A stretch of DNA of 64,000 nucleotides from Quadrisphaera granulorum (GTDB lineage: Bacteria > Actinomycetota > Actinomycetes > Actinomycetales > Quadrisphaeraceae): contig NZ_QGDQ01000011.1 in assembly GCF_003149145.1 (NCBI RefSeq), positions 1-64,000 on the forward strand, given 5' to 3'. The position numbers and the translations under genes were made by a program. Positions 279-32,297 of the stretch are shown here, piece by piece (the first letter of the stretch is position 1; each line of letters opens with the position of its first letter). The notes beneath the pieces are model-generated. The model had not been told where the DNA came from. It was given only the letters and a program-made list of their open reading frames with translations, and made no database searches.

Positions 279-1802
279 TCAGTGAGAGGTAACCGCCTCA
301 CGACTGATCACAGCGTCATCGGTGAGCCTGGGCCGAAGCGCCACCAGGCTGACCAGCGCGCCGACCAAACCCGCGACCCCAGCCACGAGGAAGACCCGGT
401 CGAGCCCCGCAGCGAAAGCCTCCTGCGCCAGCGACTCCGCCACCGCTCGCGCGCCACTGGGCACCGCCGCCAGCAGCTGCTGCGCCCCGCCGCTCGTCAA
501 CCCCGCGGCGAACCGCTCCGGCTGCGGCACGCCAGCCGCCCCAGACACCGAAGACCGCACCGCAGCGCTGAGCACGGACCCGAGGACGGCGATCCCGAGC
601 GCCATCCCGAGCTGGCGCGCGGTGTTCACCGCGCCGCTCGCCATGCCGGCGCGGTGGTGAGGCACCGTGGCGAGCGCCGCGGAGACGAGCACTGGCGTCC
701 CCAGCCCGACGCCCAGCCCGCCCACGACCATCCCCGGGACAAGCGCCATCCAGCCCACCGGCGACCAGACGTGCAGCGCCAGCACCACCAGCAGGTCACC
801 GGCGCCGATCAACGCCATGCCCACCGTGACCGGCAACCAGGGCGACCTGTCGTGCAGCAGCCGACCGACCGCCGCAGAGACCACGAACGCCACCACGCTC
901 AGCGGCAACACCACCAGCCCGGCCCGCACGGCGTCGAGCCCGAGCAGCGACTGCAGCCACAGCGACGCGTACGCCAACGTGCCGAACGCAGACGCCTGCA
1001 TGAGTACCGCCACCACGAGCAGCCCACTGAACGACGGCGACCGCAGCAGCCGCAGGTCGAGCAACGGCGCCGACGCCCGTCGCTCCACGACGCAGAAGAC
1101 GACGACGGCGAGCGCGCTCACGCCGACGCTGGCCACGGCCCCGGCGCTGGTCCACCCGTGCTCCCCGCCGCGAATCAGCCCGAAGACCAGGCTGGCTGCG
1201 GCGAGCGTGAACGCCACCGCCCCGCCAACGTCGAGCCGGCCCGCCGGGTGCCGCGTCTCCGGGAGCGTCCGCAGCGCGAGGACGACGGCGACCGCGGCCA
1301 CCGGCAGGTTGACGAAGAACACCCATCGCCACGACAGCGCGTCGACGAGCACCCCGCCGGCCAGCGGCCCGGCCGCCGCCGCCGCGCCGCTGACCGCGCC
1401 CCACACACCGAAGGCCGTGCCGCGGTCGCGTCCGGAGTAGCTCGTGGAGAGCAGGGCCGTGGTCGCGGCGAACATCGCGGCTCCACCGACACCCTGAACC
1501 ACGCGGGAGGCCACGAGGACCGACGACGACGGCGCCGCGCCGCACGCGAGCGAAGCCGCCGCGAAGACGACCAGCCCGACGACGAAGGTCGCGCGGCGGC
1601 CCGCGCGGTCGGCGATGGCGCCGGCGAGCATCAGCAGCGCGGCGAGCGCGAGGGCGTAGCCGTCGACCACCCACTGGAGGTCGGCGAACGACGCCGACAG
1701 CGAGGTCGCCATGGACGGCAGGGCGACGTTGACGATGGTGACGTCGAGGAGGAGCACGAAAGTGCCCAGACAGACCGCTGTGAGCGGCAGCCACTTGCGC
1801 AT
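279..1802 (-). CDS. MFS drug:H+ antiporter (DHA2, 14-helix type)
   Basis: A 507-residue inner-membrane transporter that probably exports toxic or signalling small molecules by proton antiport. The start is the ATG at 1802, chosen because GGAGG lies five bases upstream and helix 1 follows at once. The DHA2 motif LDVTIVNVALP ends helix 1, the loop 2-3 motif is ADRAGRR, and helix 5 carries the antiporter motif GPLAGGVLVD followed by WRWVFFVNLP. Length and helix density fit the 14-helix QacA/EmrB group. It is divergent from a Lrp-type regulator 147 bp away, which probably controls it. The substrate cannot be read from sequence. Confidence 0.85.
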   Translation of the reverse strand: MRKWLPLTAVCLGTFVLLLDVTIVNVALPSMATSLSASFADLQWVVDGYALALAALLMLAGAIADRAGRRATFVVGLVVFAAASLACGAAPSSSVLVASRVVQGVGGAAMFAATTALLSTSYSGRDRGTAFGVWGAVSGAAAAAGPLAGGVLVDALSWRWVFFVNLPVAAVAVVLALRTLPETRHPAGRLDVGGAVAFTLAAASLVFGLIRGGEHGWTSAGAVASVGVSALAVVVFCVVERRASAPLLDLRLLRSPSFSGLLVVAVLMQASAFGTLAYASLWLQSLLGLDAVRAGLVVLPLSVVAFVVSAAVGRLLHDRSPWLPVTVGMALIGAGDLLVVLALHVWSPVGWMALVPGMVVGGLGVGLGTPVLVSAALATVPHHRAGMASGAVNTARQLGMALGIAVLGSVLSAAVRSSVSGAAGVPQPERFAAGLTSGGAQQLLAAVPSGARAVAESLAQEAFAAGLDRVFLVAGVAGLVGALVSLVALRPRLTDDAVISREAVTSH

Positions 1803-5968: not shown

Positions 5969-7336
5969 TTAGACGGTCTGGAGAGACCGGCGCGGGATCA
6001 GCAGGTAGAGCGCCCCGGCGACGACGAAGCCGACCAGCGGGGTGAGGTCACCGAGCTGCGGGAGCGCCGTGGCCACCGGGCCCGCGTACACCGCCTGGTT
6101 GGCGAACAGCGCAATGGACACGACCGTGCCCACGATGAACGCCACCAGGCCGCCGACGTTGGTCCACGACTTCTCGTGCAGCACGCCGGACACGTCCTCG
6201 CCTCGGCGGACCCACTGGTCGGCGAGCACCACCGCGAGCCACGGAGCGACCCAGTAGGAGATCACCAGGAGGAAGGACTCGTAGGCGTGACCGGCGTCGG
6301 CGAGCCCGCCCCAGGCGAGGAAGAACCCGACCACCCCGAACGCCACCGGGACGACCGCCCGGCGGCGCGCCAGCGACGTGAAGCCCATCGACAGGAACGC
6401 CATCGAGCCGGAGTAGACGTTGATGATGTTCGCGCAGATCGCCCCGAGGGCGATGGCCAGCAGCGTCACCTGCGCGAGAGCGCCGGGCAGGTGGGAGGTG
6501 AACGCCTCGGTGGGGTTGTCGCTGGTAGCGCCGGGGATGAAGAAGGACGCTGCGCCGGCGAGCATGAGCACCGTGGTCGAGAGGAACAGACCGACGCCCG
6601 CGGCCCAGCCGGCGGCGCGCCCGGTGCCCAGGGGCAGGTAGCGCGTGTAGTCGGTGGCGTAGGGGTTCCACCCGGCGCTGTAGCCCCACGCCGTCGCCGC
6701 CGCGAGGATGAAGCCGCCCATACCGGCCGGCTGCTCGGGCACCACCGAGTAGTCGGCCTTGGCGAAGGTCAGGACGGCGACGACGGCGAACACCACCGCG
6801 AGCACGATGACCGCGTACCGCTCGAAGAGGTGGACCAGGTCGTGGCCGAGCGCGGCGACGCCGATCTGCACGAGCACCACCGCGAGCAGGCAGACCACGG
6901 GGGCGAGCGTCGTCAGGGCCGACAGCGCGAACGCCGCGGAGACGCTGTTGACGGCGAACCAGCCGAAGCCCGCCATGACGGACATGAGCGTCGCGGGGAC
7001 GACGTTGCCGCGGAACCCAAAGGCGACCCGTGCGAGCACCATCTGCGGTACGCCGACCTTCGGCCCGCGGGCCGACAGGATGCCGTGGGACAGGGCCGCC
7101 AGTCCGTTACCCAGCAGGATGGCGGCCGCGGCCTGCCAGAAGGTCAGGCCGAAGGCCATGGTCGCCAGGACGCCGACGAAGACGGTCGCGAACTCCAGGT
7201 TCGGGGAGCTCCACGTCCACGCGAGGTGGAGCGGGCGTCCGCGCCGCTCGCTGAGCGGGATCGTCTCGGTGGAGCGCTTCTCGAGCGTCTCCGTGGCGGC
7301 GACGGGGGCGGGTGGTGCTGTGCTGGTAGCGGTCAT
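5969..7336 (-). CDS. NCS1-family nucleobase permease (cytosine/purine type)
   Basis: A 455-residue, roughly 12-helix membrane protein of the nucleobase:cation symporter-1 family, which imports cytosine, purines, allantoin or related compounds. Seen: N-terminal IPLSERRGRPLHLAWTW, helix-1 region LATMAFGLTFWQA, the loop GPKVGVPQMVLARVAFG, the helix-6 segment GWNPYATDYTRYLP (characteristic of NCS1 CodB-like carriers) and AWGGLADAGHAYESFLL. Its ATG overlaps the deaminase stop (ATGA). The pairing with a cytosine deaminase argues for cytosine as the substrate. Confidence 0.87.
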   Translation of the reverse strand: MTATSTAPPAPVAATETLEKRSTETIPLSERRGRPLHLAWTWSSPNLEFATVFVGVLATMAFGLTFWQAAAAILLGNGLAALSHGILSARGPKVGVPQMVLARVAFGFRGNVVPATLMSVMAGFGWFAVNSVSAAFALSALTTLAPVVCLLAVVLVQIGVAALGHDLVHLFERYAVIVLAVVFAVVAVLTFAKADYSVVPEQPAGMGGFILAAATAWGYSAGWNPYATDYTRYLPLGTGRAAGWAAGVGLFLSTTVLMLAGAASFFIPGATSDNPTEAFTSHLPGALAQVTLLAIALGAICANIINVYSGSMAFLSMGFTSLARRRAVVPVAFGVVGFFLAWGGLADAGHAYESFLLVISYWVAPWLAVVLADQWVRRGEDVSGVLHEKSWTNVGGLVAFIVGTVVSIALFANQAVYAGPVATALPQLGDLTPLVGFVVAGALYLLIPRRSLQTV

Positions 7337-7833
7337 GGGAGGTCCTCTCCGATGTCTTCGAACCACACGTCGGGGCGTTCGGTGATGAAGCGCTGCATGA
7401 GGTCCTTGCAGCGCTGGTCGTCGAGCACGGTCACCGAGACGCCGTGCTCGGCCAGCCAGTCGTGGCCGCCGGTGAAGGTGGAGCTCTCGCCCACCACGAC
7501 GTGCCCGATGCGGAACTGGCGGACCAGCCCGCTGCAGTACCAGCAGGGCGAGAGCGTGGTGACCATGACCGTGTCGCGGTAGCTCGGCCGGCGGCCCGCG
7601 GCGCGGAACGCGTCGGTCTCTGCGTGGACGGACGGGTCGCCGTCCTGGATACGGCGGTTGTGGCCCGCCCCCAGCAGCTCGCCGTCGAGGGAGAACAGGG
7701 CCGCGCCGATGGGGACGCCACCCTCGGCGGCGCCCTTGCGGGCCTGGGCGACGGCGACGTCGAGGAGCGCGCCGACGTCGTACGGGAGCTCCGGGGCTCC
7801 CAGAAGTGTCGAAGGAGTGACGGTGGTGCTCAT
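7333..7833 (-). CDS. Cytosine deaminase, yeast Fcy1-like
   Basis: A 166-residue zinc hydrolase of the CDA fold converting cytosine to uracil. The zinc ligands and catalytic glutamate are in VHAET and SPCWYC. The tail ERPDVWFEDIGE and the internal GGVPIGAALF and GAGHNRRIQDG closely follow fungal Fcy1-type enzymes, not the amidohydrolase CodA. I start at the ATG at 7833; a GTG at 7857 adds eight non-conserved residues. It is the first gene of an operon with the permease and is divergent from a PucR regulator, giving a compact cytosine-salvage unit. Confidence 0.85.
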   Translation of the reverse strand: MSTTVTPSTLLGAPELPYDVGALLDVAVAQARKGAAEGGVPIGAALFSLDGELLGAGHNRRIQDGDPSVHAETDAFRAAGRRPSYRDTVMVTTLSPCWYCSGLVRQFRIGHVVVGESSTFTGGHDWLAEHGVSVTVLDDQRCKDLMQRFITERPDVWFEDIGEDLP

Positions 7834-7914
7834 AGGTGTCACCCCACCAGCCGACATGGGCGTGGCGTCAGCGTCACCCTGTCAGCATTCGGACTACCGA
7901 TCTCGGACACTGCG

Positions 7915-7920
7915 TACGCT
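7915..7920 (+). promoter_or_regulatory. -10 hexamer of leaderless pucR-type gene
   Basis: TACGCT six bases before the GTG at 7927, with no ribosome site between them. It fits a leaderless transcript. The 93-bp divergent gap to the deaminase start would hold both promoters and the PucR operator. Confidence 0.5.
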
Positions 7921-7926
7921 GCAGAC

Positions 7927-9528
7927 GTGGCACTGCTCGTGCGCGAGGCGCTCCAGCACCCGGTGGTGAGCGCGGCGTCGCCGCAGGTACTCACCGACGG
8001 AGCCGACCTCGACGTCCCCGTCCGGTGGGTGCACTCCAGCGAGATCTACGAGATCGGCCCGCTGCTCACCGGCGGAGAGCTGCTGCTGACCACAGGGCTC
8101 GGCGTCTCCGGTGCCGACGCCGGGGCCCGTCGCCACTACGTGCGCGACCTGGCGGCCCGCGGCGTGGCGGCGCTCGCCATCGAGGTGGGGCGCTCGCTGC
8201 CGGCGGTGCCGCCGGAGATGGTCGACGAGGCGACCCGCCGCGGCCTGCCCCTCGTGGTGCTGCGCGAGGTGGTCCCGTTCATCCGGATCTCCGAGGCCCT
8301 CAACACCCTCATCGTCGACGACACCTCGGCCAGGCTGCGCCTGTCCGAGCGCGTCACCGCCGCAGTCCAGGCGGCCCAGGCGGAGGAGCGAGGCCTGGCG
8401 GGGCTGCTCGCCGCGGTGGGTCAGCTGCTGGGACGCCCGCTCGTGCTGGTCTCCGCGGGCGGCGCACTGGTGTCCGCCGCCGGCACCCCCGACGATCGCG
8501 CGGCCTGGCGGGTGGTCGAGTCGCCCGCGGCGGTCCAGGTCGACGTCGTCGTGCGGGGCCGACGCTGGGGTGCTGTCGCCGCCGGCAGTCCCAGCGGTGT
8601 GGGGGCGGGTGGCTCCGGTGCTGCCGGTGGCGCCGGTGACGTGGCGGTCCAGATCTCCGACGACGACGTCAGCGCGGCGCTGAGCAGGCTCGCCCCTGCG
8701 CTGGCACTGGAGCTGCTGCACGGCCGCGGCACACCCCACCGCCCCGACCAGCTCGCGGCACGCCTCCTCGCCGACCTCGTCGAGGGCGAGTCGCCCGACA
8801 CCGACCTGCTCGTGCGCGCCGGCGCCGCGGGGTTCCACCCGGGCGCGGCCGACGTCGTCGTCGGGGTCGCCGTGGACGTCCCCGAGAGCCGGACCGGGCT
8901 GTCACTGCTGCAGGCCGCGGCGCGCAGCACCGGAAGTGGCGGCACGGTGCTGCGAGGCCGCGTCGGCGCGGACGTGCTGGCGCTGTTCGCGCTGGACCGC
9001 CCGGACCCGGTGCGCGTCGTCGCCGAGGCGCTCACCGCGGCCTGGCGTCGCGCGGGCGAGCCGCCGCTGCAAGCCGCCGTGGGTGACGCCGTGGCCGCCG
9101 ACCGCGGCGCGGCGGGCTGGCGCTGGACGCTCGGACGCGCCCGGGCGGCGGCGTCGCTGGCCAGCAGGGCACCCGCGCCCCCCGAGGCCGCCGGTCGGGT
9201 GACCACCGCCCGGGCGTGGGCGCTGGAGCTGCTGCTCCACGAGAACGGCGCTCCGGTGGCCGACATCGCCGACTCCACCCTTCGAGGCCTGCGCCGCTGG
9301 GACGCGCGGCACGGCAGCGACCTCGTACGCACCGTCGAGACGCACCTGCGCTTCGGCGGCTCACCGTCACGGACCGCCGAGGAGCTGCAGATCGGCCGGC
9401 AGGCTGTCTACCAGCGCCTGGCCCGCATCGAGGAGCTGCTTGGGCACCCGCTCGACGCCCCCGACGCCCACGCCGCGCTGCTCGTGGCGGCAGCCGCCGC
9501 GCGCCTCGCCCGCACCCCCTCCCCGTGA
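7927..9528 (+). CDS. PucR-family transcriptional regulator
   Basis: A 533-residue regulator with an N-terminal PucR ligand domain (about 1-125; ALQHPVVSAASPQVLTDGADL.VPVRWVHSSEI is typical) and a C-terminal PucR-type HTH (about 465-520; HGSDLVRTVETHLRFGGSPSRTAEELQIGRQAVYQRLARIEELLG). The middle is a GGDEF-like degenerate region rich in Ala/Gly loops. The start is a GTG behind a leaderless promoter. Divergent location next to cytosine deaminase and permease makes those genes the likely targets, with a nucleobase as signal. Its TGA stop is part of a TGATCATGGGC half-repeat. Confidence 0.85.
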   Translation: MALLVREALQHPVVSAASPQVLTDGADLDVPVRWVHSSEIYEIGPLLTGGELLLTTGLGVSGADAGARRHYVRDLAARGVAALAIEVGRSLPAVPPEMVDEATRRGLPLVVLREVVPFIRISEALNTLIVDDTSARLRLSERVTAAVQAAQAEERGLAGLLAAVGQLLGRPLVLVSAGGALVSAAGTPDDRAAWRVVESPAAVQVDVVVRGRRWGAVAAGSPSGVGAGGSGAAGGAGDVAVQISDDDVSAALSRLAPALALELLHGRGTPHRPDQLAARLLADLVEGESPDTDLLVRAGAAGFHPGAADVVVGVAVDVPESRTGLSLLQAAARSTGSGGTVLRGRVGADVLALFALDRPDPVRVVAEALTAAWRRAGEPPLQAAVGDAVAADRGAAGWRWTLGRARAAASLASRAPAPPEAAGRVTTARAWALELLLHENGAPVADIADSTLRGLRRWDARHGSDLVRTVETHLRFGGSPSRTAEELQIGRQAVYQRLARIEELLGHPLDAPDAHAALLVAAAAARLARTPSP

Positions 9529-23351: not shown

Positions 23352-23382
23352 GGACCAGAGGATCTCCGAGAGGCGTCGGGAG

Positions 23383-23880
23383 TCAGGAGTCGGGCCAGAC
23401 GAGCGGGTCCACGGTCGCGTCGTGGTGCATGGTGAGGACCCTCAGCACCACGAGCTCGTGGTCGCCGGCCGGGTACACGTGCTCGATCGAGGTCTCCAAC
23501 CGGGCCGGGGCCGCATCGAGCAGGACGGCACCGAACTCGGTGGTGTGGTGAGGCACGTCCACGAGGCGCCGGCGGCGGTCGCGCGACGCCAGCTGCCGCG
23601 CGCGATCGGCATGGGCCTTCGCGAGGACGGAGACCCCGATCCGGGGCGCGGCACGGAGCTCCTTCCACGTCGTCGACGATTGCTGCACCGCGAAGGTGAC
23701 GAGGGGCGGCACGAAGGAGACGCCCGCGGTGAAGGACGAGGCGACCATCACCACGGCCTGCCCCTCGACGTGGGCGCCCACCGCCACCAGGACCGACGGC
23801 ACGCAGGCGAGGGCTCGGCGCATCTCGTCGGGGTCGGTCGTGCGCACCATCGACGACGGCGGCCCGCCGTTGGCGCTCAT
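23383..23880 (-). CDS. Flavin reductase (two-component monooxygenase partner)
   Basis: A 165-residue flavin reductase-like domain that would supply FMNH2 from NAD(P)H. Family marks: MRRALACVPSVLVAVGAHVEGQAVVMVASSFTAGVSFVPPLVTFAVQ, then WKELRAAPRIGVSVLAKAHADRARQLASRDR, and YPAGDHELVVLRVL at the end. It is the last gene of the eight-gene flavin operon and overlaps the transporter-kinase stop (ATGA). Two LLM monooxygenases upstream in the same operon need exactly this partner. Comparable to HpaC/RutF or the reductase RcaB of riboflavin-degrading Microbacterium. Confidence 0.85.
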   Translation of the reverse strand: MSANGGPPSSMVRTTDPDEMRRALACVPSVLVAVGAHVEGQAVVMVASSFTAGVSFVPPLVTFAVQQSSTTWKELRAAPRIGVSVLAKAHADRARQLASRDRRRRLVDVPHHTTEFGAVLLDAAPARLETSIEHVYPAGDHELVVLRVLTMHHDATVDPLVWPDS

Positions 23881-25595
23881 GCCGGGCGTCCGAGGATTGC
23901 GCGGGCGCGGCGCTCGTCGTCGCGCATGGCCTCGACGAGCGCCGCGGGGTCGGCGAAGGCTCGCTGGCCGCGCAAGCGCCGGACCATCGTCACGGAGACC
24001 TCGGCGCCGTACAGGTCGCCATCGAAGTCGAGGACGTGCACCTCGGCAGTGCGGGCCTGGCCCGCGAAGGTCGGGTTGACCCCGATGGAGACGAGAGCAG
24101 GCCTGGGCTGCGCCTCGTGTCCCACCGTGAGGTCCCCGAGGTAGACCCCGTCGGACGGCAGTGCGGATCCCTCGGCCAGCTCGATGTTCGCGGTGGGGTA
24201 ACCCAGGCCGCGCCCCACCCCGGCACCGTGCACCACCCGCCCGCGGAGCTGAACGGGCCGTTCTGCGCGCTCCGACGCGGGCAGGAGCGCGCCGGCCACG
24301 ACGGCCACCAGGCACGCCAGCGCGAGCGCCCCGAGCGCCGCAGCGGGACTGGCCACGGCGAGCACCGCGGCGGTCACGGCACTTCCGAGCACAGCACCCA
24401 GCTGCTTCGCCGTGTTGAACGTGCTCGACGCCGCCCCGAGCTCGGCCCTGGGGACCTCCTGCACAGCACTCAACGAGAAGGGGGACCAGACGAACGCGTT
24501 GGCGATGCCGTAGACGCCGAACGCGCCGGCCAGGGCCCAGGGTGGCCCCTCCCCCTGCATCAGGTATCCGGCGCCCGCCACGGAGATCCCGAGCAGGGAG
24601 GTGCCGAGCAGCGCGGTGACGCGGGGCCCGGCCCGCCCGGTGAGCGCGCCGACGAAGGGCACCGCGGCGACGCAGAGGATGCCCATCGGCAGCAGCAGCA
24701 TCGACGCTGCCGCGGCGGAGAGTCCCGCGGAGCCCTGCAGGTACAGCATCAGCGGAACCGGCGCCGACGCGACGCAGCAGGCTGCTGCTGCGGCGCCGGT
24801 CGATCCGGCGACGAACGGCCGGCGGGACAGCAGGCGCACCGGGACCAGCGCGCCGGTACCCAGACGCGACTGCCCGACCACGACCGCGGCCACCGCCACG
24901 ACACCGGCAATCACCAGAGCGGCGCGCAGCGGGGTGGAGGTGACCCCGGAGACCCCCTGCACGCCGACGACGACGGCGAGCACCCCCACCATCAGGGCCG
25001 CGACCGGCGCGAGCGGCAACCGCACCGGCAGCCGTGGCGAGGACGGCACGAACCGCAGGACGGCTACCGCCGTCACGACGCCGACGGGAACATTGACGAG
25101 GAAGACGGCCGGCCACCCCCAGCGGTCGACGAGCACGCCGCCGAGCACCGGACCGACCACGGTGGCTGCTCCGCCCCCACCGCTCCAGACCGCGAGCGCG
25201 GTGGCCAGCGCCGGCGGCTCGAACAGCTCCCGGATGATCGCGAGGCACTGCGGGGTGAGCAACGCCGCGCCGAGTCCCTGCACGGCCCGCCAGATCACCA
25301 GCGCGCCGACGCTCGGAGCCGCCGCACAGCCCACCGAGGCGATGGTGAACACCGCAAGCCCGACCAGGTACACGCGCCGCCGGCCGAACCGGTCGCCGAT
25401 CCGGCCCGTGACGAGCAGGGGAACGGCGAGCGCCAGCAGGTAGGCGCTGTTGACCCAGACGGTCTGCGCTGGAGTGGCCCCCAAGTCCCGGGCCATCGCG
25501 GGAAGCGCGACGGACACGACGGTGCCGTCGATCAGCAGCACGAAGAAGCCGAGGCACAGCGCCGACAGCGCAGCCCACCGGCGTCTGGTGGTCAC
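23877..25595 (-). CDS. MFS transporter fused to a riboflavin kinase domain
   Basis: A 572-residue fusion. Residues 1 to about 440 are a 14-helix DHA2-type MFS carrier (LLIDGTVVSVALP in helix 1, GRIGDRFGRRRVY, GPVLGGVLVDRWGWP, FNTAKQLG). Residues about 445-572 are a full riboflavin kinase domain as in the RibF C-terminus: RGRVVHGAGVGRGLGYPTAN, DGVYLGDL, SIGVNPTF, EVHVLDFDGDLYGAEVSV. The ATP/flavin PTAN motif and the DFDGDLYG motif are intact. I infer transport and phosphorylation of riboflavin to FMN at the inner membrane face. No FAD synthetase domain is attached. GTG start overlaps the upstream monooxygenase stop (GTGA). One continuous frame; no sign of an artefactual join. Confidence 0.85.
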   Translation of the reverse strand: MTTRRRWAALSALCLGFFVLLIDGTVVSVALPAMARDLGATPAQTVWVNSAYLLALAVPLLVTGRIGDRFGRRRVYLVGLAVFTIASVGCAAAPSVGALVIWRAVQGLGAALLTPQCLAIIRELFEPPALATALAVWSGGGGAATVVGPVLGGVLVDRWGWPAVFLVNVPVGVVTAVAVLRFVPSSPRLPVRLPLAPVAALMVGVLAVVVGVQGVSGVTSTPLRAALVIAGVVAVAAVVVGQSRLGTGALVPVRLLSRRPFVAGSTGAAAAACCVASAPVPLMLYLQGSAGLSAAAASMLLLPMGILCVAAVPFVGALTGRAGPRVTALLGTSLLGISVAGAGYLMQGEGPPWALAGAFGVYGIANAFVWSPFSLSAVQEVPRAELGAASSTFNTAKQLGAVLGSAVTAAVLAVASPAAALGALALACLVAVVAGALLPASERAERPVQLRGRVVHGAGVGRGLGYPTANIELAEGSALPSDGVYLGDLTVGHEAQPRPALVSIGVNPTFAGQARTAEVHVLDFDGDLYGAEVSVTMVRRLRGQRAFADPAALVEAMRDDERRARAILGRPA

Positions 25596-26932
25596 GTCCG
25601 CAGTGCCAGGTTCTCGCGCAGGGTGGCGCCCGGGTACCGCGGTGCGAGCGCGCCGCGAGACCGCAACGCCGGCATCAGCAGCTCGCTCAGCCGGTCGAAA
25701 CCTCCGGGAGCGCCGAGCGGACTGGAGAGCATGAACCCGCCGGGGCCGCCCACGGCGTCGAAGGTCTCCTGCAGCGTGTCCGCGACCGTCTCGGCGTCAC
25801 CGACGACCATGTGGTCGAGACCGGCTGCAGCGCGGCGCCCCCGTTCGAAGAACTCCTCCCGCGTGACGCACGCGGCCGGGCCCAGCTCGTCGACGAGCCC
25901 ACCGACGAACCCTGCCGGGCTGGCCTGCGCCGCCCGGATCTCGTCGTGGAGCTCGCCGAGCCGGAAGGAGGCCGGCAGCGTGGAGAAGTCGTAGCCGGAG
26001 TTGTGCGAGAGGAAGACCCCGACCGCCTCCGGGTTCCAGAAGCGCAGCAGCTCGTCGCGCTCGGCGAGGGCGCCGGCGGTGGTCGGCGCGACGATCGCCT
26101 GGGTCGCCCAGAGGATCCCCACCTCGGCGGGGTCTCTGCCGACGTCCACGAGGGCCCGGTCCAGGGCCGCGCGGTGCCGCTGCTGGGCGGTGACGGTCGG
26201 ACCGAAGCCGAAGACGAGGTCCGCGAAGGAGGCGCTCGCGGCGATGCCCCGGGGGGAGGCGCCGGCCTGCACGATCGGTGGGTGCCGCTGTGGACTCGGG
26301 ACGCTGGCGAGCGGACCGCGCACGGAGAAGAAGCGACCCTCGTGGTGGATCGGGTGCACCTTTCGCGGATCGGCGAAGCGGCCGGTGACGACGTCGCGCA
26401 CGATGGCGTCGGGTTCGACCGAGTCCCACAGGGCGCGGCAGACGGAGACGAACTCCTCCATGCGTTCGTAGCGCAGGTCGTGGTCCATGAGGTGGTCCGC
26501 CCCGTGGTTCGCCGCGTCGCTGCCCCGGGTCGAGGCGACGACGTTGAAGGCGATCCGCCCACCGGTGACGTGGTCCAGCGAGTTCAGTAACCGCGCGACG
26601 GTGAAGGGGTGCATGAAGGTGGAGGAGTAGGTGAGGCCGAAGCCGATGTGCCGGGTCGCGGTGGACAGGACCGCGATCACGGGGGCCATGTCGTGCCGTG
26701 GCCACTGGATGCCCCACTCCACGGCGGCGTCGATGCTGCCGCGCCAGGTGGAGGGGACCCCGGAGCCGTCTCCGAAGAAGAGCAGGTCGACGCCTGCTCG
26801 TTCCGCGGCGATCGCGACCTGCCGGTAGCCGGCAAGATCGGGGAAGGTTATCCCGGCTGATCCATCGGCCAGGGCCCAGCGTCCCTCGGTGTGCGCGAAG
26901 GACAGGTCGTAGGCCACGTGCATCCCCGTCAT
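25592..26932 (-). CDS. LLM monooxygenase, riboflavin-lyase (RcaE)-like candidate
   Basis: A 446-residue FMNH2-dependent TIM-barrel monooxygenase of the NtaA/SnaA/DszA group. Seen: AERAGVDLLFFGDGSG, HIGFGLTYSSTFMHPFTVARLLNSLDHVTGGRIAFNVVAS, NHGADHLMDHDLRYERMEEFVSVCRALWDS, and the flavin region VPSPQRHPPIVQAGASPRG. Riboflavin lyase RcaE, which splits riboflavin to lumichrome and ribose using FMNH2, belongs to this structural class. Placement between a riboflavin kinase fusion and a flavin reductase makes that the best guess, not a proven call; other polar substrates are possible. ATGA overlap with the hydrolase upstream. Confidence 0.7.
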   Translation of the reverse strand: MTGMHVAYDLSFAHTEGRWALADGSAGITFPDLAGYRQVAIAAERAGVDLLFFGDGSGVPSTWRGSIDAAVEWGIQWPRHDMAPVIAVLSTATRHIGFGLTYSSTFMHPFTVARLLNSLDHVTGGRIAFNVVASTRGSDAANHGADHLMDHDLRYERMEEFVSVCRALWDSVEPDAIVRDVVTGRFADPRKVHPIHHEGRFFSVRGPLASVPSPQRHPPIVQAGASPRGIAASASFADLVFGFGPTVTAQQRHRAALDRALVDVGRDPAEVGILWATQAIVAPTTAGALAERDELLRFWNPEAVGVFLSHNSGYDFSTLPASFRLGELHDEIRAAQASPAGFVGGLVDELGPAACVTREEFFERGRRAAAGLDHMVVGDAETVADTLQETFDAVGGPGGFMLSSPLGAPGGFDRLSELLMPALRSRGALAPRYPGATLRENLALRT

Positions 26933-27579
26933 CGCGACTCTCCTCGCCCCAGCCCCCGCCACAGGGCGGTGACGTGCTCGGCCGACGCAATCACCGCGAT
27001 GTTCGCCGCGAGCAGCTGCAGCGCCGCGGCGGCCAACTCGGGGGTGTAAGCCGTCGTCGCGTCCGCGGGCACGACCACGGGCCAGTCGAGCTGCATCGCG
27101 TCCTGCGCGGTCGCCAAGACACAGCACTCGCTCGTCAGTCCCACCACCGTCACCCAGCCGACCTCCGCCGCCGTCAGGCGCTCCGCCAGGTCTGTTCCGG
27201 CGAAGCCGCTGTAGCCGCGCTTGACCACCCGCACCTCACCGGCTGTGGGGGTGACCCGGTACCACTGCGCGCCCTGCGAGCCGGTCACGCACGGCTGCTC
27301 GGCCTCGCCCGTCGTGGTGCCGCGCAACCAGTCGCTGGCCCGCCACGGCCGGGCGGGGTCGCTGGCGAGCTCCACCCACACCACCGGCACGCCGAGGGCA
27401 CGGGCACGCTCGACGAGGTCTCCGATCCGACCGACGACCGCGTCCAGTTCGGCGGTGGACTCGGCCGACAACCCGTACTCGCCGAGCCTGCTCGGGTCAG
27501 CGAAGTCACGTTGGACGTCGACGACGACGAGGGCGGGCCGGCCACGCAGCGCGGCCAGCCGCGGGTCGGCGGCACTCAC
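26929..27579 (-). CDS. Isochorismatase-fold cysteine hydrolase, RutB-like
   Basis: A 216-residue amidase of the cysteine hydrolase family. The catalytic triad is visible: Asp21 in ALVVVDVQRDF, Lys120 in VVKRGYSGF and Cys153 in LTSECCVLATAQDA, followed by the usual VPADATTAY. RutB of the pyrimidine Rut pathway (ureidoacrylate amidohydrolase) and nicotinamidases share this layout. It lies between a RutA-like and a RcaE-like monooxygenase and overlaps both neighbours by 4 nt, so it probably hydrolyses the ureido/amide product of one of them. GTG start at 27579. Confidence 0.78.
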   Translation of the reverse strand: MSAADPRLAALRGRPALVVVDVQRDFADPSRLGEYGLSAESTAELDAVVGRIGDLVERARALGVPVVWVELASDPARPWRASDWLRGTTTGEAEQPCVTGSQGAQWYRVTPTAGEVRVVKRGYSGFAGTDLAERLTAAEVGWVTVVGLTSECCVLATAQDAMQLDWPVVVPADATTAYTPELAAAALQLLAANIAVIASAEHVTALWRGLGRGESR

Positions 27580-28646
27580 GACGAGACCGCCGCGTCGCGG
27601 GCGCGTAGGGCGGGCAGCACCTCGTCGCCGAACCGCACGATGTCGTCGTCGTACTCCGGGAAGATCAGCATCAGCCCGTCCAGCTCGGCCTCGTCGACGA
27701 TGGAGGCGATGTGGTCGATGACGGTCGACGCGGCACCCGCGACGTACGGCGTCTGGAACGCGGCCTCGCCGACGGCGCCGTCCGCCCAGGAGCGGGCCTG
27801 GTCGGCGGGGATGCCCCAGGAGGCGCGCATCGCGGCGAGCGCGCCACGGTCGAGGCCGGCGCCCCAGGCCTGCACCTTCGCCTCCGCAGCCGCATCGGTG
27901 TCGTCTTGCACGACCGTGAGCATCGAGTACGTGCGGCACGACCGTCCCAGCTGCGCGGCTCGGTCGTGGACGTCGCGGGACAGGTCCCGCATCTCCTGCA
28001 GGTTGTCGGCGGACAGGAAGGCGCCGTCGGCGAAGCGGGCCTGGAACGCTCGGGCGCGCTCCGACCTGCCGGCGCTGATGACCGTCGGGCGCTTCGACGG
28101 GTGGGGCCTCGACTCGCAGTCCTCCAGGGTGAACCAGGGGGTGCTCACGGTGACGGAGGGCTCCGACCACAGGCGCAGCACCGCTTCCGTCCACGCCTCG
28201 GTCATCCGGTAGCGGTCGTCGTGACTGAGCCCCTCGTCCCACAGGCCGAACTGCGCGAACTCCTCCGCGTACGAACCGCTCACGACGTTCATGCCGGCTC
28301 GCCCGCCGGACACGTCCTGCAGTGTCGTGAACATCTTGGCCGCGACGGCCGGGTTGTGGACGTTTGCGTGCATGGTCGCCCAGATCTGCACCCGCGACGT
28401 CGCCTCCGCGATCGCGGACATCATGGTCATCGACTCCAGCGACCGGCCCCAGTGGTCGGTGGTGCCGCCGAATCCACGCCACTTCGCCATGGACATCACG
28501 AAGTCGAGGCCTGAGTCCTCGGCCGTCACCGCAGCGCGCCGGTTCCAGGCGTAGCTCGCCTCCGGGTGCGGCGCGGTGGTGGACAGCATCCAGCCACCGT
28601 TCCCGATCGGCAGGAAGATGCCGTACTCCTTGGTGCCTCCGCTCAC
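27576..28646 (-). CDS. LLM monooxygenase, RutA-like
   Basis: A 356-residue flavin-dependent monooxygenase resembling pyrimidine oxygenase RutA: YGIFLPIGNGGWMLSTTAPHPE, AEDSGLDFVMSMAKWRGFGGTTDHW, LESMTMMSAIAEATSRVQIWAT, DVSGGRAGMNVVSGSYAEEFAQFGLW, RPTVISAGRSERARAFQARFADGAFL and a C-terminal DGLMLIFPEYDDDIVRFGDEVLPAL. RutA opens the uracil ring between N3 and C4. Here the operon partners are flavin-related, so a fused pyrimidine ring such as the one in lumichrome is a plausible substrate (inference). GTG start overlaps the lipoprotein stop. Confidence 0.75.
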   Translation of the reverse strand: MSGGTKEYGIFLPIGNGGWMLSTTAPHPEASYAWNRRAAVTAEDSGLDFVMSMAKWRGFGGTTDHWGRSLESMTMMSAIAEATSRVQIWATMHANVHNPAVAAKMFTTLQDVSGGRAGMNVVSGSYAEEFAQFGLWDEGLSHDDRYRMTEAWTEAVLRLWSEPSVTVSTPWFTLEDCESRPHPSKRPTVISAGRSERARAFQARFADGAFLSADNLQEMRDLSRDVHDRAAQLGRSCRTYSMLTVVQDDTDAAAEAKVQAWGAGLDRGALAAMRASWGIPADQARSWADGAVGEAAFQTPYVAGAASTVIDHIASIVDEAELDGLMLIFPEYDDDIVRFGDEVLPALRARDAAVSS

Positions 28647-29788
28647 GGTGCCGGCCAGACGAGGGTGCCGCCGGAGTAGACGGACGTCACGAAGGAGTTG
28701 TCGAACCACCCGGCAGCGACCTCGGGCGTCACGGTGCTCGGCACGATGTCGTACTGGCGCAGCATCTGGACGAGATCCGTGACGTTCTGCGGGTCGATCC
28801 CACCCAGCGGTTGCCCGGGCGTCGGGTTGTCGGCGACCACGCTCGTCTCCGTCGTCCAGATCTTCTCGTTGAGGTCCGTGTCGTACGTCGCGCCGCTCAG
28901 GTCCTTGGCGAACCCGACGCACGTCGCGGTCGCCGCTGCATCGGCGGAGCAGGTGGCGTACGCGTGCAGCGCAGCGCGGAGCACGTCCTCCACCGCCGTG
29001 GGGTGGGCCTCGGCGAACGCGGGGTTCACGGCCATCGCGCCGATCGAGCTAGGAATGCCGTACGTCACGGGTTGCCACACCGTGACGGGGGTACCGGCCG
29101 CTTCCAGCTGGTTCGGCTCGTTCGAGATGAACCCGGTCAGCGCAGCCAGGTCGTTCTGCCGCCGCGGCAGCACCGAGGGGTCGTACCCCTCCTTCACCAG
29201 CTGGACCGACGACCAGTCGACACCGGCCTTCTCCACCATCGCTCGCACCGATGCGGGCACGTAGCCCTTGTGCCCGACGACCTTGCCGTCCAGCTGCTTG
29301 AGGTCGGTGACGTCGGGGTTGGTCATGAGGATGTCCAACCCGGCGTTGGAGTAGGACGAGATGCCGGTGATGTCGATGCCGTTCGCTCGTGCCTGGATGA
29401 CGTCCTGCATCGACACGGCCGAGATCGTCGCCTGGCCGCTCGCCAGCAGCTTGGTGTTCTGGGCCGTGTCACCGCTGCCCGGCTTGAGCTGCACGTCGAG
29501 GCACAGGTCGTCGAAGTAGCCGAGGTCCTTGGCCGCGATGTACTCCAGGATCGAGACCGATGACTGGAACTGATACCCCGACAGGTAGGTGATGGTGCCC
29601 GCGGCGCGGTTCTTCGCGCAGCGGTCCGCCGAGATCGCCGCCCCGCTGCCGTCTGTGGCCACGGACGGGCTTTCGGCGGAGGGGCTTCCGGCCGAGGGGC
29701 TTCCGCCGCAGCCGGTCACGGCGAGCAGCCCCGCGAGAGCGACGAGCGCCGCGCCGCGGCGGGTCGTGAGCAGAGAAAGCTGAGACAT
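28643..29788 (-). CDS. ABC importer substrate-binding lipoprotein (NMT1/THI5-like)
   Basis: A 381-residue exported lipoprotein. The signal peptide ends in a lipobox AVTGC with Cys27, followed by a Ser/Gly/Ala-rich tether. The mature part has the NMT1/THI5-like fold: AAKDLGYFDDLCLDVQLKPGSGDTAQNTKLLASGQATISAVSMQDV, LDILMTNPDVTDLKQLDGKVVGHKGY. Family ligands include thiamine precursors, taurine, and, for RibY of Chloroflexus, riboflavin. Position in the flavin operon favours a flavin ligand. A GGAG lies six bases before the ATG. A gap of about 140 bp separates it from the permease gene; no strong promoter or terminator is visible there. Confidence 0.83.
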   Translation of the reverse strand: MSQLSLLTTRRGAALVALAGLLAVTGCGGSPSAGSPSAESPSVATDGSGAAISADRCAKNRAAGTITYLSGYQFQSSVSILEYIAAKDLGYFDDLCLDVQLKPGSGDTAQNTKLLASGQATISAVSMQDVIQARANGIDITGISSYSNAGLDILMTNPDVTDLKQLDGKVVGHKGYVPASVRAMVEKAGVDWSSVQLVKEGYDPSVLPRRQNDLAALTGFISNEPNQLEAAGTPVTVWQPVTYGIPSSIGAMAVNPAFAEAHPTAVEDVLRAALHAYATCSADAAATATCVGFAKDLSGATYDTDLNEKIWTTETSVVADNPTPGQPLGGIDPQNVTDLVQMLRQYDIVPSTVTPEVAAGWFDNSFVTSVYSGGTLVWPAP

Positions 29789-29927
29789 GGGACTCCGATC
29801 CACGGTGATGAAGGGGGTGATGAAGGAGCGCAGAGGTGCTGGAGGGATGGGTTCAGAGCACGGCCGCCCGGAGGGAACGCGGGCGCGGCGTGCAGGAGAA
29901 GGGCGGTGTACGGGCGAGGAACGCCGG

Positions 29928-30749
29928 TCAGTCAGTGGTGCCGCGGTGCCATCGCAGGACCCGCCGCTCGACGAGGGTGATGACACCGAGGAGAGCGACA
30001 CCCAGCAGCGCGAGGATGAAGATCGACGCATACACGACCGCGAGCTGGTTCATCGACGAAGCCGTGCTGATCACCGTGCCGAGCCCGCCGGTCGCTCCGG
30101 CCGCCGAAAGTTCCGCGACGACCGCACCGATGATCGACAGCGGGAAGACGATGCGCAGAGCCGCGAACACGTAGGGCAGGGCCGACGGGACGCGGACGTG
30201 CAGCAGCAGCTCCAGACGCGACGCGCGGACGGTCCGGTACACCTGGAGCACCTGCTGCGGAACCGACCGCAACCCGGTCGCGGTGTTGATGAGGATGGGG
30301 AAGAAGCAGATCAGGGCAGTGATGATGAGCTTCGGGGCTGCCCCGAACCCGAAGGCGACGACGAGCGCGGGAGCGATCGCCACCAGCGGCGTGACGTTCA
30401 GCACGACGGCGACCGGCATCACGGCTCGGCGGATCACGGCCGACTCACTGGTCAGGACTGCAAGACCGAAGGCGACGACGAAGCCGATGGCCAGGCCCGC
30501 CACCGACTCGAAGAGCGTGATCCCCGCGTTCTGCAGGTAGTACGGCAGCTCGGTGGCGAGCGTTGCGGCGACGTCCTGCAGGGGCGGCAGCAGGAACGGC
30601 ATCTCCACAGCCGTGACCTGCCACGCGAGCGCGAGCACGGAGATCAGCACGAGAGGCGGCATCCACAGGGAGATCCGCAGGCGCTGCAGGACGCCGCGCT
30701 GGGTGCGGGTGGGTCGGCTGTCCACGGAGCGGGAGAGAGTGGTGGCCAT
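29928..30749 (-). CDS. ABC importer permease (SsuC/RibX-like)
   Basis: A 273-residue six-helix permease of the BPD_transp_1 family, partner of the lipoprotein and ATPase on either side. Seen: PPLQDVAATLATELPYYLQNAGITLFESVAGLAIGFVVAFGLAV, the EAA-type loop QQVLQVYRTVRASRLELLLHVRVPSALPYVFAALRI, and IGAVVAELS.ATGGLG. I took ATG 30749 because the ATPase stop lies 10 bp upstream and the longer frame overlaps it. Type matches sulfonate/thiamine-precursor/riboflavin importers. Confidence 0.85.
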   Translation of the reverse strand: MATTLSRSVDSRPTRTQRGVLQRLRISLWMPPLVLISVLALAWQVTAVEMPFLLPPLQDVAATLATELPYYLQNAGITLFESVAGLAIGFVVAFGLAVLTSESAVIRRAVMPVAVVLNVTPLVAIAPALVVAFGFGAAPKLIITALICFFPILINTATGLRSVPQQVLQVYRTVRASRLELLLHVRVPSALPYVFAALRIVFPLSIIGAVVAELSAAGATGGLGTVISTASSMNQLAVVYASIFILALLGVALLGVITLVERRVLRWHRGTTD

Positions 30750-30759
30750 CAGCGGTCGC

Positions 30760-31575
30760 CTACGCCGCACCGGGGACGCGCCAGGCGCCGCGCAGGGCAT
30801 TCCGGACACGGTCCTCGTAGGCATGGAAGCGCCCCTGCTCGAGCAGTTGCTGGCCGCGCGGGCGCGGCAGGTCGATGTCGATCACGTCGACGACTCGACC
30901 CGGATCCGGTGCCATCACGACGACGGTGTCGGAGAGGCGCACCGCCTCCTGGATCGAGTGGGTGACGAAGAGCACGGTGGTCTGCAACTCGTCCCACAGG
31001 TCGAGCAGTTGCTCCTGCAGCGCCTCTCGCGTGAACTCGTCGAGGGCGGAGAACGGCTCGTCCATGAGCAGCACGTCCGGCCGCAGCCCGAAGGCGCGCA
31101 CGATCGCCACCCGCTGCTGCATACCGCCGGAGAGCTGCGACGGCAGGCGGTGCACCGCCTCGGCAAGACCCGCTCTGGCCAGCAAGGAGAGCATGTCCGG
31201 CTCCTGGAGCACAGCCCGTGCCTCGACTCCCGCGATCTCGGCGCGACGGGCGGCCGCTCGACGGTTCATGCGGCGTGGAAGCGTGACGTTGCGGAGCACG
31301 TCCAACCACGGCAGCAGAGCGGGCGTCTGGGGGACGAGCCCGATGAGCTTGGCCGCGCAGGCGTCCTCCGGGGACACACCGTGCACGGACACCTGCCCGT
31401 GGTCCTGGGCTTCGAGCCCAGCGACGAGCCGGAGCAGGGTCGACTTCCCGCAACCGCTGGGGCCGATCAGCGAGACGAACCGCCCTGGAGGCACGGACAG
31501 CGAAACGTCGTCGAGAGCGACGGTGCCGTCACCGTAGGTCTTCCGGACTCCGTGGAGTCGTACTCCTGCGTTCAT
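30760..31575 (-). CDS. ABC importer ATPase
   Basis: A 271-residue nucleotide-binding subunit: Walker A GPSGCGKST (about 36-44), Q-loop LVPQTPALLPWLDVLRNV, signature LSGGMQQRV, Walker B DVLLMDEPFSALDEFTRE and switch VTHSIQEA. First gene of the eight-gene operon; its ATG has GGAGGG six bases upstream. The upstream 176 bp (31576-31751) carry the operon promoter and an inverted repeat. Confidence 0.87.
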   Translation of the reverse strand: MNAGVRLHGVRKTYGDGTVALDDVSLSVPPGRFVSLIGPSGCGKSTLLRLVAGLEAQDHGQVSVHGVSPEDACAAKLIGLVPQTPALLPWLDVLRNVTLPRRMNRRAAARRAEIAGVEARAVLQEPDMLSLLARAGLAEAVHRLPSQLSGGMQQRVAIVRAFGLRPDVLLMDEPFSALDEFTREALQEQLLDLWDELQTTVLFVTHSIQEAVRLSDTVVVMAPDPGRVVDVIDIDLPRPRGQQLLEQGRFHAYEDRVRNALRGAWRVPGAA

Positions 31576-31637
31576 CGCCGTCCCTCCATACCTGGTGCGG
31601 CACACCTCAGGGCCGCGTCGTGTATGGCGGAGAGCGT

Positions 31638-31665
31638 GCGTCACGAGCGAGAGGAACTGTGACGC
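31638..31665. promoter_or_regulatory. Possible operator upstream of the flavin operon
   Basis: GCGTCAC and GTGACGC, a 7-bp inverted repeat with 14-nt spacer, 63 bases before the first start codon. No regulator gene is adjacent. I looked for the conserved FMN riboswitch core in this leader and did not find it. Confidence 0.3.
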
Positions 31666-31751
31666 GGAGGTCCGCTACGACTCGGGAAGCTAGGAGCCCC
31701 GCGTTTCACCGAGCGACGCACGTGTTGCGGTCGCGTAACAGAGGATCGTCG

Positions 31752-32183
31752 TCAGGCGTCATCCTGTCCGTAGGCAGTGACCGATCCGTTCGCTCCAGCC
31801 CCCCACACGAGAACCGTGATCCCTGTCTCTGCGGCCGCCGTCCCTACCCAGCCGGCGAGAGCACGGCGCACCGGCTCGGCGATGACGAGCACGGGCTCCG
31901 GAGCGCCCGGGATCGTCTGCCGAAGCCAGAGCAGCTTGAAGAAGTCAGCCATGACCTTGTTCCGAAAGGCCGGCTTGTAGGCGCCCTGGTTGGCGACGAG
32001 CTGGGCGATGTAGCGGTCGGCCGCGTCGATGCCTTCGACCTCGACACGCGCACGGTCGAGCCTGATCATGCGTGGCCGCAGCTCGACTCCCAGGTGAGCC
32101 CCGGCATCCACCAGCATCCGCCGCTCGACCGAACCGGGTGCGAAGCGGCCCCACGCCCGCTCCTCGTCGGAATCGATTGCCAC
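31752..32183 (-). CDS. Hypothetical protein (143 residues)
   Basis: A soluble protein I do not recognise. It starts MAIDSDEERAWGRFAPGSVERR, has a central charged region with VEGIDAADRYIAQLVANQGAYKPAFRNKVMADFF, and a hydrophobic C-terminal half (TGITVLVWGAGANGSV). The GTG at 32183 is preferred over an ATG eight codons upstream because TACACT stands exactly six bases before it. It lies between the flavin operon and an oxidoreductase on the other strand; no evidence of joint function. Confidence 0.5.
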   Translation of the reverse strand: MAIDSDEERAWGRFAPGSVERRMLVDAGAHLGVELRPRMIRLDRARVEVEGIDAADRYIAQLVANQGAYKPAFRNKVMADFFKLLWLRQTIPGAPEPVLVIAEPVRRALAGWVGTAAAETGITVLVWGAGANGSVTAYGQDDA

Positions 32184-32189
32184 GCGCGC

Positions 32190-32195
32190 AGTGTA
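32190..32195 (-). promoter_or_regulatory. -10 hexamer of a leaderless hypothetical gene
   Basis: TACACT on the minus strand, six bases before the GTG at 32183, no ribosome site. Confidence 0.5.
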
Positions 32196-32297
32196 GGAAG
32201 GCCCCACGGTGCCGTGGCCTGGCGATCACCTGGCCTGTAAACGGCACCAGGTCGTGATCGTGGCGCCGCCGTCGAGCCGGCAGGGCAGGGTGGGGTC

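Follow-up and report, generated by a model that had tools for sequence, protein, structure and literature searches.

Four groups of described systems come closest to the locus analyzed here: the riboflavin catabolic (rca) clusters, the bifunctional RibF enzymes, in which a riboflavin kinase (RFK) is joined to an FAD synthetase half, the DHA2 drug exporters, and the Rut uracil pathway. The DHA2 exporters QacA, EmrB, and EfpA have 14 helices. Xu et al. are said to have described, in 2016, a riboflavin catabolic cluster with RcaA/RcaB in Microbacterium maritypicum G10. According to PMC12746152, which also mentions this cluster, five genes together with RcaE convert riboflavin to lumichrome and ribose, and RcaE was not known to adjoin the lumichrome genes in any strain.

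In the window (the whole stretch of DNA that was analyzed, 64,000 nucleotides, from a high-GC bacterium), an RFK domain is fused to an MFS transporter. It is encoded by gene number seven in a row of eight on one strand, in the order three ABC genes, RutA-like LLM, cysteine hydrolase, NtaA/DszA-like LLM, MFS-RFK fusion, and flavin reductase. The last six genes, from the binding protein through the reductase, show a start/stop overlap (GTGA or ATGA) at each of their five junctions. The locus comprises:

23383..23880, reverse strand: flavin reductase (PF01613, E 1.8e-24), its ATG overlapping the fusion stop
23877..25595, reverse strand: MFS-riboflavin kinase fusion, 572 aa (Pfam, model, and homologous fusions in L150 and L152)
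25592..26932, reverse strand: NtaA/DmoA-family FMN-dependent LLM monooxygenase (TIGR03860, 352.6 bits for a cut-off of 279.7; protein scanned from 26935)
26929..27579, reverse strand: isochorismatase-family cysteine hydrolase (PF00857, E 3.4e-37)
27576..28646, reverse strand: RutA-like LLM monooxygenase (PF00296; RutA 230.1 bits, below the cut-off of 498.3; protein scanned from 28643, without its GTG)
28643..29788, reverse strand: ABC substrate-binding protein, NMT1/THI5 type (PF09084)
29928..30749, reverse strand: ABC permease (PF00528)
30760..31575, reverse strand: ABC ATPase (PF00005)
31752..32207, reverse strand: conserved 151-aa ORF upstream of the operon, with homologs at the corresponding place in 10 other genomes
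23353..32282, no strand: island that carries the entire operon and is missing from two genomes of the genus (blastn)

Two genomes of the same genus (G008 and G010) align to the window up to 23352/23351 and resume at 32283, with approximately 90 bases in between (blastn). Since 23353-32282 is missing in both while the flanks continue, the operon sits on an 8.9-kb island. Three other same-genus comparisons were uninformative, L171 having other sequence at the site and L173 and L174 matching one flank gene only. Both ends of the island were checked for flanking repeats, and none was convincing. The 151-aa ORF matched no Pfam or NCBIfam family and is possibly a regulator or some other part of the pathway. 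Pfam scans of the operon neighbors gave no substrate. In one related locus (L139 3471-7178, genome G780), two consecutive MFS genes are followed by an Asp/Glu/hydantoin racemase-family gene, which is a possible clue to the operon substrate. Another (L183 8409-15256, genome G423) contains a pair of RutA-like genes about 5 kb apart. RutA-like proteins (47% identical) are also encoded with cysteine hydrolase, flavin reductase, and MFS genes on Acinetobacter and Paraburkholderia plasmids, and these groupings indicate that an MFS protein, too, belongs to the wider theme.

The fusion is one open frame with a GTG start and no internal stop, and its GC3 stays at 0.84-0.95 throughout, junction included. 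It is divided as follows:

24288..25595, reverse strand: MFS domain, DHA2-like, residues 1-436 (Pfam; 14 helices by model)
24264..24287, reverse strand: linker, residues 437-444 (pLDDT below 50 at 443-445; unfused orthologs stop about here)
23892..24263, reverse strand: riboflavin kinase domain, residues 445-568 (PF01687; PTAN and EVHVLDFDGDLYG)

Pfam assigns MFS_1 to residues 13-404 (E 6.8e-62) and Flavokinase (PF01687) to residues 445-568 (E 1.5e-36), the latter over positions 2-124 of a profile of 124. With 125.8 bits against a curated cut-off of 19.6, the kinase domain is complete. PTAN and EVHVLDFDGDLYG are present in the window fusion. Each of the three fused RFKs (window, L115, and L152) retains PTAN, the acidic motif before DLYG, and ExHxxD; the first two we take to be catalytic residues of riboflavin kinase. 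Only MFS-type families and Flavokinase were returned by Pfam, and the FAD synthetase domain expected of a bifunctional RibF is absent from the fusion. In an AlphaFold model (mean pLDDT 83.5, built on 8 aligned rows), helices counted as 14 spans extend to residue 436 and are followed by strands at 448-543 and a C-terminal helix. The pLDDT falls below 50 at residues 443-445, 459-463, and 507-513, and the RFK part is the weaker one, with 10-residue means of 58-84. On this model, the MFS half has the 14 helices of the DHA2 type. It scores 188.8 bits with the EmrB-type exporter model TIGR00711, under the curated cut-off of 230.2, and its best PDB matches by sequence and by fold are the drug exporters QacA, EmrB, and EfpA, at 25-28% identity; this likeness does not settle the direction or the substrate of transport. 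A sequence-only reading of the stretch had proposed a single continuous frame running from a 14-helix DHA2 transporter into a complete kinase domain with intact motifs. It had the coordinates, strand, and continuity right, and the model and the Pfam match bear out its description of the two domains.

The best PDB match to the fusion RFK domain is 3op1, named 'Macrolide-efflux protein'; as the match lies in the C-terminal end of 3op1, this entry looks like a misnamed RibF. The window also contains another MFS gene (537-1802, reverse strand), whose product shares 38% identity with the MFS part of the fusion across residues 4-423.

The MFS-RFK fusion is real. The same two domains are fused in-frame in the same operon, on one contig each, in genomes G565 (L150, the same gene as L115) and G944 (L152), which makes an assembly error very unlikely. 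The sequence-only reading would have been undermined by homologs in which the domains are always separate genes; these two homologs are fused. An assembly or frame artifact was considered as the source of the fusion and was ruled out by the same two genomes. The window fusion is 51-53% identical to those of G565 and G944 in the RFK domain and 51% identical in the MFS domain. Between G565 and G944, dN/dS is 0.21 (MFS) and 0.22 (RFK); against the window fusion, where dS is high, it is 0.48-0.52 (MFS) and 0.34-0.35 (RFK). These identities and dN/dS values indicate that the fusion is more than chance, and both halves are under constraint. Searches of an open-access library, partly directed at transporters with kinases and judged by titles and abstract openings, listed no recognizable MFS-RFK protein. 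The architecture is real and conserved, and no description of it was found there.

The distribution of the operon was followed with the RutA-like protein as the probe, and 10.9-19.5 kb were fetched around each ortholog (L141 and L185 are cut short). Matches were detected in 17 of 396 genomes of the order at E ≤ 1e-60, with 13, the window included, at 53% identity or more; in 5 of 366 genomes of genus g30 (probably Microbacterium) at 1e-90; and in 11 of 384 genomes of the class at 1e-90, two of them already known. Altogether, 27 genomes, window included, carry the ortholog. The fusion is present in three of them (window, G565, and G944), representing two families, while six (G942, G972, G1064, G134, G780, and G515) have the operon MFS unfused and no RFK match in the fetched stretch. 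An NtaA-type ortholog (at least 540 bits) is found in 15 of the 27, including all nine with an operon MFS. Within the fetched stretches, no operon-type MFS was found in 18 of the 27 (three, L140, L185, and L191, have a weak MFS match of 32-93 bits), no NtaA-type ortholog in 12, two of these stretches being on short contigs, and no RFK in 24; given these absences, the RFK is not essential to the pathway.

The genome of the window has two PF01687 domains, that of the fusion and a RibF-like one on contig 1, and the remaining 12 genomes of the family carry one each. Among 394 genomes of the class, with no more than 10 candidates scored in each, the RFK ranking next reaches 52% identity, and an extra RFK was confirmed in no other genome. 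Six class genomes in which two RFK pieces had been seen proved to have one PF01687 match each. In genus g30, 24 of 198 genomes have more than one RFK, amounting to 25 extra copies. All but one partial copy (G661) were fetched, and 22 of these 24 are in rca clusters, one is in a flavin reductase-RFK pair (L100), and one is the MFS-RFK fusion (L115, G565). A scan of genome contigs with the whole fusion gave at least 14 distant matches, all in the MFS part and with no fusion among the matches listed, although its patterns were poor and it proves little. A tblastn search of the fusion against plasmids matched 2287 records, none covering 80% of the query. Flanks of up to 1.5 kb around the best 29 MFS relatives in the order (L016-L044, some cut by contig ends) contained no RFK.

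In the alignment, the RFK of the fusions starts where the unfused MFS proteins of G942, G972, G1064, G134, and G780 stop, shortly after the last helix. The MFS tree (built without L016, the same gene as L149, and without G515, which was found afterwards) gathers eight operon MFS proteins into a single clade (100/99), inside which the three fused ones form their own (100/99). This nesting implies that the operon had its MFS before the fusion arose. Single-gene trees disagree about the position of G515. In a seven-protein tree, the three fused genomes form a clade (92/95) with the unfused G515 as sister; topology tests did not reject G515 with G565 and G944 (p 0.12) and rejected G515 with the window (p 0.01). 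The simplest reading of these trees is that RFK and MFS were joined in one gain.

The fused RFKs also form one clade (100/94), outside the RibF clade of the genus, in a tree from which L092 (a partial match) and exact duplicates were dropped. An origin of the fusion RFK as a recent copy of the RibF of its own genome was not supported by this tree. The best tree keeps the fused RFKs apart from the rca RFKs, but a single clade of the two was not rejected (AU p 0.41). In G515, a separate FMN_red gene lies between the MFS gene and the reductase gene, and the flavin reductase that follows is 53% identical to that of the window. In the reductase tree (rows below 40 bits or 110 residues dropped, G515 missing), the three fused-operon reductases cluster with their rca counterparts (100/99) and are separate from the reductases of seven other operons (99/99), indicating that the fused branch carries a different flavin set. 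Their nearest outside relative is the reductase of L100 (96/90).

RFK genes are found beside LLM oxygenases elsewhere as well. All 22 rca clusters of genus g30 have a ribokinase and an RFK near an LLM and a flavin reductase. The LLM of rca cluster L101 matches PDB 5w48 (riboflavin lyase) with 745 bits, and those of the 21 others are 66-98% identical to it, in L097 over 143 residues only because of a contig end. One rca cluster (L096 7741-9453, genome G616) has a 571-aa frame in which RFK is fused to a PfkB ribokinase (Flavokinase 47-163, PfkB 283-551). The flavin reductase-RFK pair of L100 (about 6990-8383, genome G662) has an LLM gene about 3 kb away whose product shares only 38% identity with the rca type; a ribokinase match was not found in that locus. 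On plasmids of Arthrobacter 68b (p2MP), A. dokdonellae, Maritalea, and Phaeobacter, RFK genes lie about 8 kb or less from LLM and flavin reductase genes; these four were chosen by name, as four of the five records plainly named 'riboflavin kinase' among 30 listed. The Maritalea grouping is an rca cluster. On p2MP of Arthrobacter sp. 68b, a pyridine degrader, a free RFK gene has a succinate-semialdehyde dehydrogenase gene on one side and RidA and LLM genes on the other (L156), and the grouping in A. dokdonellae (L157) is similar. We infer that the common theme of these groupings is FMN supply.

The fusion is probably a dedicated FMN supply for FMNH2-dependent oxygenases, with the kinase added once to a transporter that was already in the operon. 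The operon would be catabolic, its substrate a small molecule that enters via the ABC importer and may be an N-heterocycle or a ring of similar kind. The two LLM oxygenases would oxidize this substrate with reduced FMN from the flavin reductase, and the cysteine hydrolase would cleave an amide-like bond. Oxygenases using free FMNH2 would raise the demand for FMN, and this branch of the operon would have met it with its own, presumably active, riboflavin kinase, joined once and in-frame to the C-terminus of the resident MFS protein. The transporter may move the substrate, an intermediate, or the product, and the kinase would sit on the cytoplasmic face; the fusion and flavin reductase genes overlap. 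Of the two roles suggested by the sequence-only reading, feeding FMN to the monooxygenases is the likelier, since the gene overlaps the LLM and reductase genes and RFKs accompany such genes elsewhere. It should be noted that an extra FMN supply is not strictly needed, because a RibF-like kinase is already encoded in the genome.

What the halves do is a separate matter from what their joining does. Transport and FMN making may have become one chain simply by loss of a stop codon, the single chain doing nothing in itself; we rate this a little below an even chance, and it is compatible with FMN supply. That the unfused orthologs stop at the junction, that G515 has a separate FMN reductase gene in the same slot, and that RFK was joined to another partner, ribokinase, in rca cluster L096 would all fit such an accident, whereas the retention of the fused state in two families, with each half at 51% identity, speaks against it without thereby proving a benefit. 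It is very improbable that the tail is a sensor, binding riboflavin, FMN, or ATP and gating the transporter: a covalent link would provide exactly one copy per transporter, but a pure sensor has no need of the kinase motifs that are kept in all three fusions. The other role suggested from the sequence was metabolic trapping akin to group translocation, in which the MFS domain would bring riboflavin into the cell for immediate phosphorylation by the tail of the same protein. Such a device would indeed look like a kinase on a carrier, and RibZ (which has MFS_1 domains) and RfnT allow growth of an E. coli riboflavin auxotroph, according to PMC4418817; the abstract of PMC6362234 assigns RfnT-like proteins to a copper importer family. 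However, six of the nine operons with an operon MFS have the orthologous transporter without RFK, the nearest solved MFS relatives are exporters, and the operon has its own ABC importer. The host, moreover, probably makes riboflavin, as RibH is encoded in its genome alongside the RibF-like kinase. No FMN riboswitch (RF00050) reached the gathering score in the window, L150, or L152, a weak point, since none was found in rca locus L101 either. Trapping is possible but unlikely, and we disfavor it.

It is likewise doubtful that the MFS half handles a flavin in a wider sense, taking riboflavin in or passing a breakdown product out, while the tail phosphorylates at the membrane and FMN goes straight to the reductase and the oxygenases; if true, one chain would combine uptake, trapping, and cofactor delivery. 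Degradation of riboflavin or lumichrome by the operon, with the RutA-like enzyme opening the uracil-like ring, seems quite improbable. The reductase resembles the rca partner, the NMT1-type ABC genes have relatives in rca cluster L101, and a RutA-like enzyme with a cysteine hydrolase recalls uracil ring opening. Yet the NtaA-like LLM shares only 31% identity with the riboflavin-lyase type and is nearer to DszA (its nearest PDB match with 221.7 bits, as opposed to 162.5 bits for riboflavin lyase), no ribokinase match was found in the window stretch, and no RFK was seen in 24 of the 27 operons with a RutA-like gene. The function of the fusion is most likely ordinary, namely FMN supply together with the operon's own transporter.

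The fusion is of interest as a naturally occurring, conserved polypeptide that pairs a 14-helix transporter with a complete cofactor-making kinase, and its unfused relatives are near enough to be compared with it directly. It also points to a pattern in which some FMNH2-dependent oxygenase clusters, such as rca and several plasmid clusters, bring their own RFK. If a dedicated FMN supply is confirmed, this supply would become adjustable on transfer of such oxygenases into other hosts, and an extra RFK gene could flag undiscovered FMNH2-dependent catabolic operons.

Compared with the described systems, the kinase half resembles the RFK of RibF (Corynebacterium ammoniagenes, PDB 5fo1/5a88) in having the whole PF01687 domain and the same motifs, but it lacks the FAD synthetase half, is joined to a transporter, and falls in a separate clade. 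The MFS half shares 14 helices with the DHA2 exporters QacA, EmrB, and EfpA, its best PDB matches in sequence and fold, but its identity to them is low, its score is below the EmrB cut-off, and in the fusion it bears a kinase tail. The operon recalls the Rut uracil pathway (RutA, RutB, and RutF) in combining a RutA-like LLM, an isochorismatase-fold hydrolase, and a flavin reductase in one operon. As the window proteins score below the equivalog cut-offs for both RutA (230.1 of 498.3 bits) and RutB (45.7 of 378 bits), they are not Rut enzymes. In the rca clusters, in contrast to the window, RFK has its own gene (joined once, to ribokinase, in L096), a ribokinase is present, the LLM is a different one, and no MFS of the fusion type was among the matches; the window does not combine a riboflavin lyase with a ribokinase, as rca clusters do. 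In common with them, the window operon has an RFK, probably a dedicated one, beside a flavin reductase, an NMT1-type ABC transporter (ATPase 51%, permease 46%, and binding protein 33% identical to those of L101), and an FMNH2-dependent LLM, and the reductases of the fused operons and the rca clusters share one clade.
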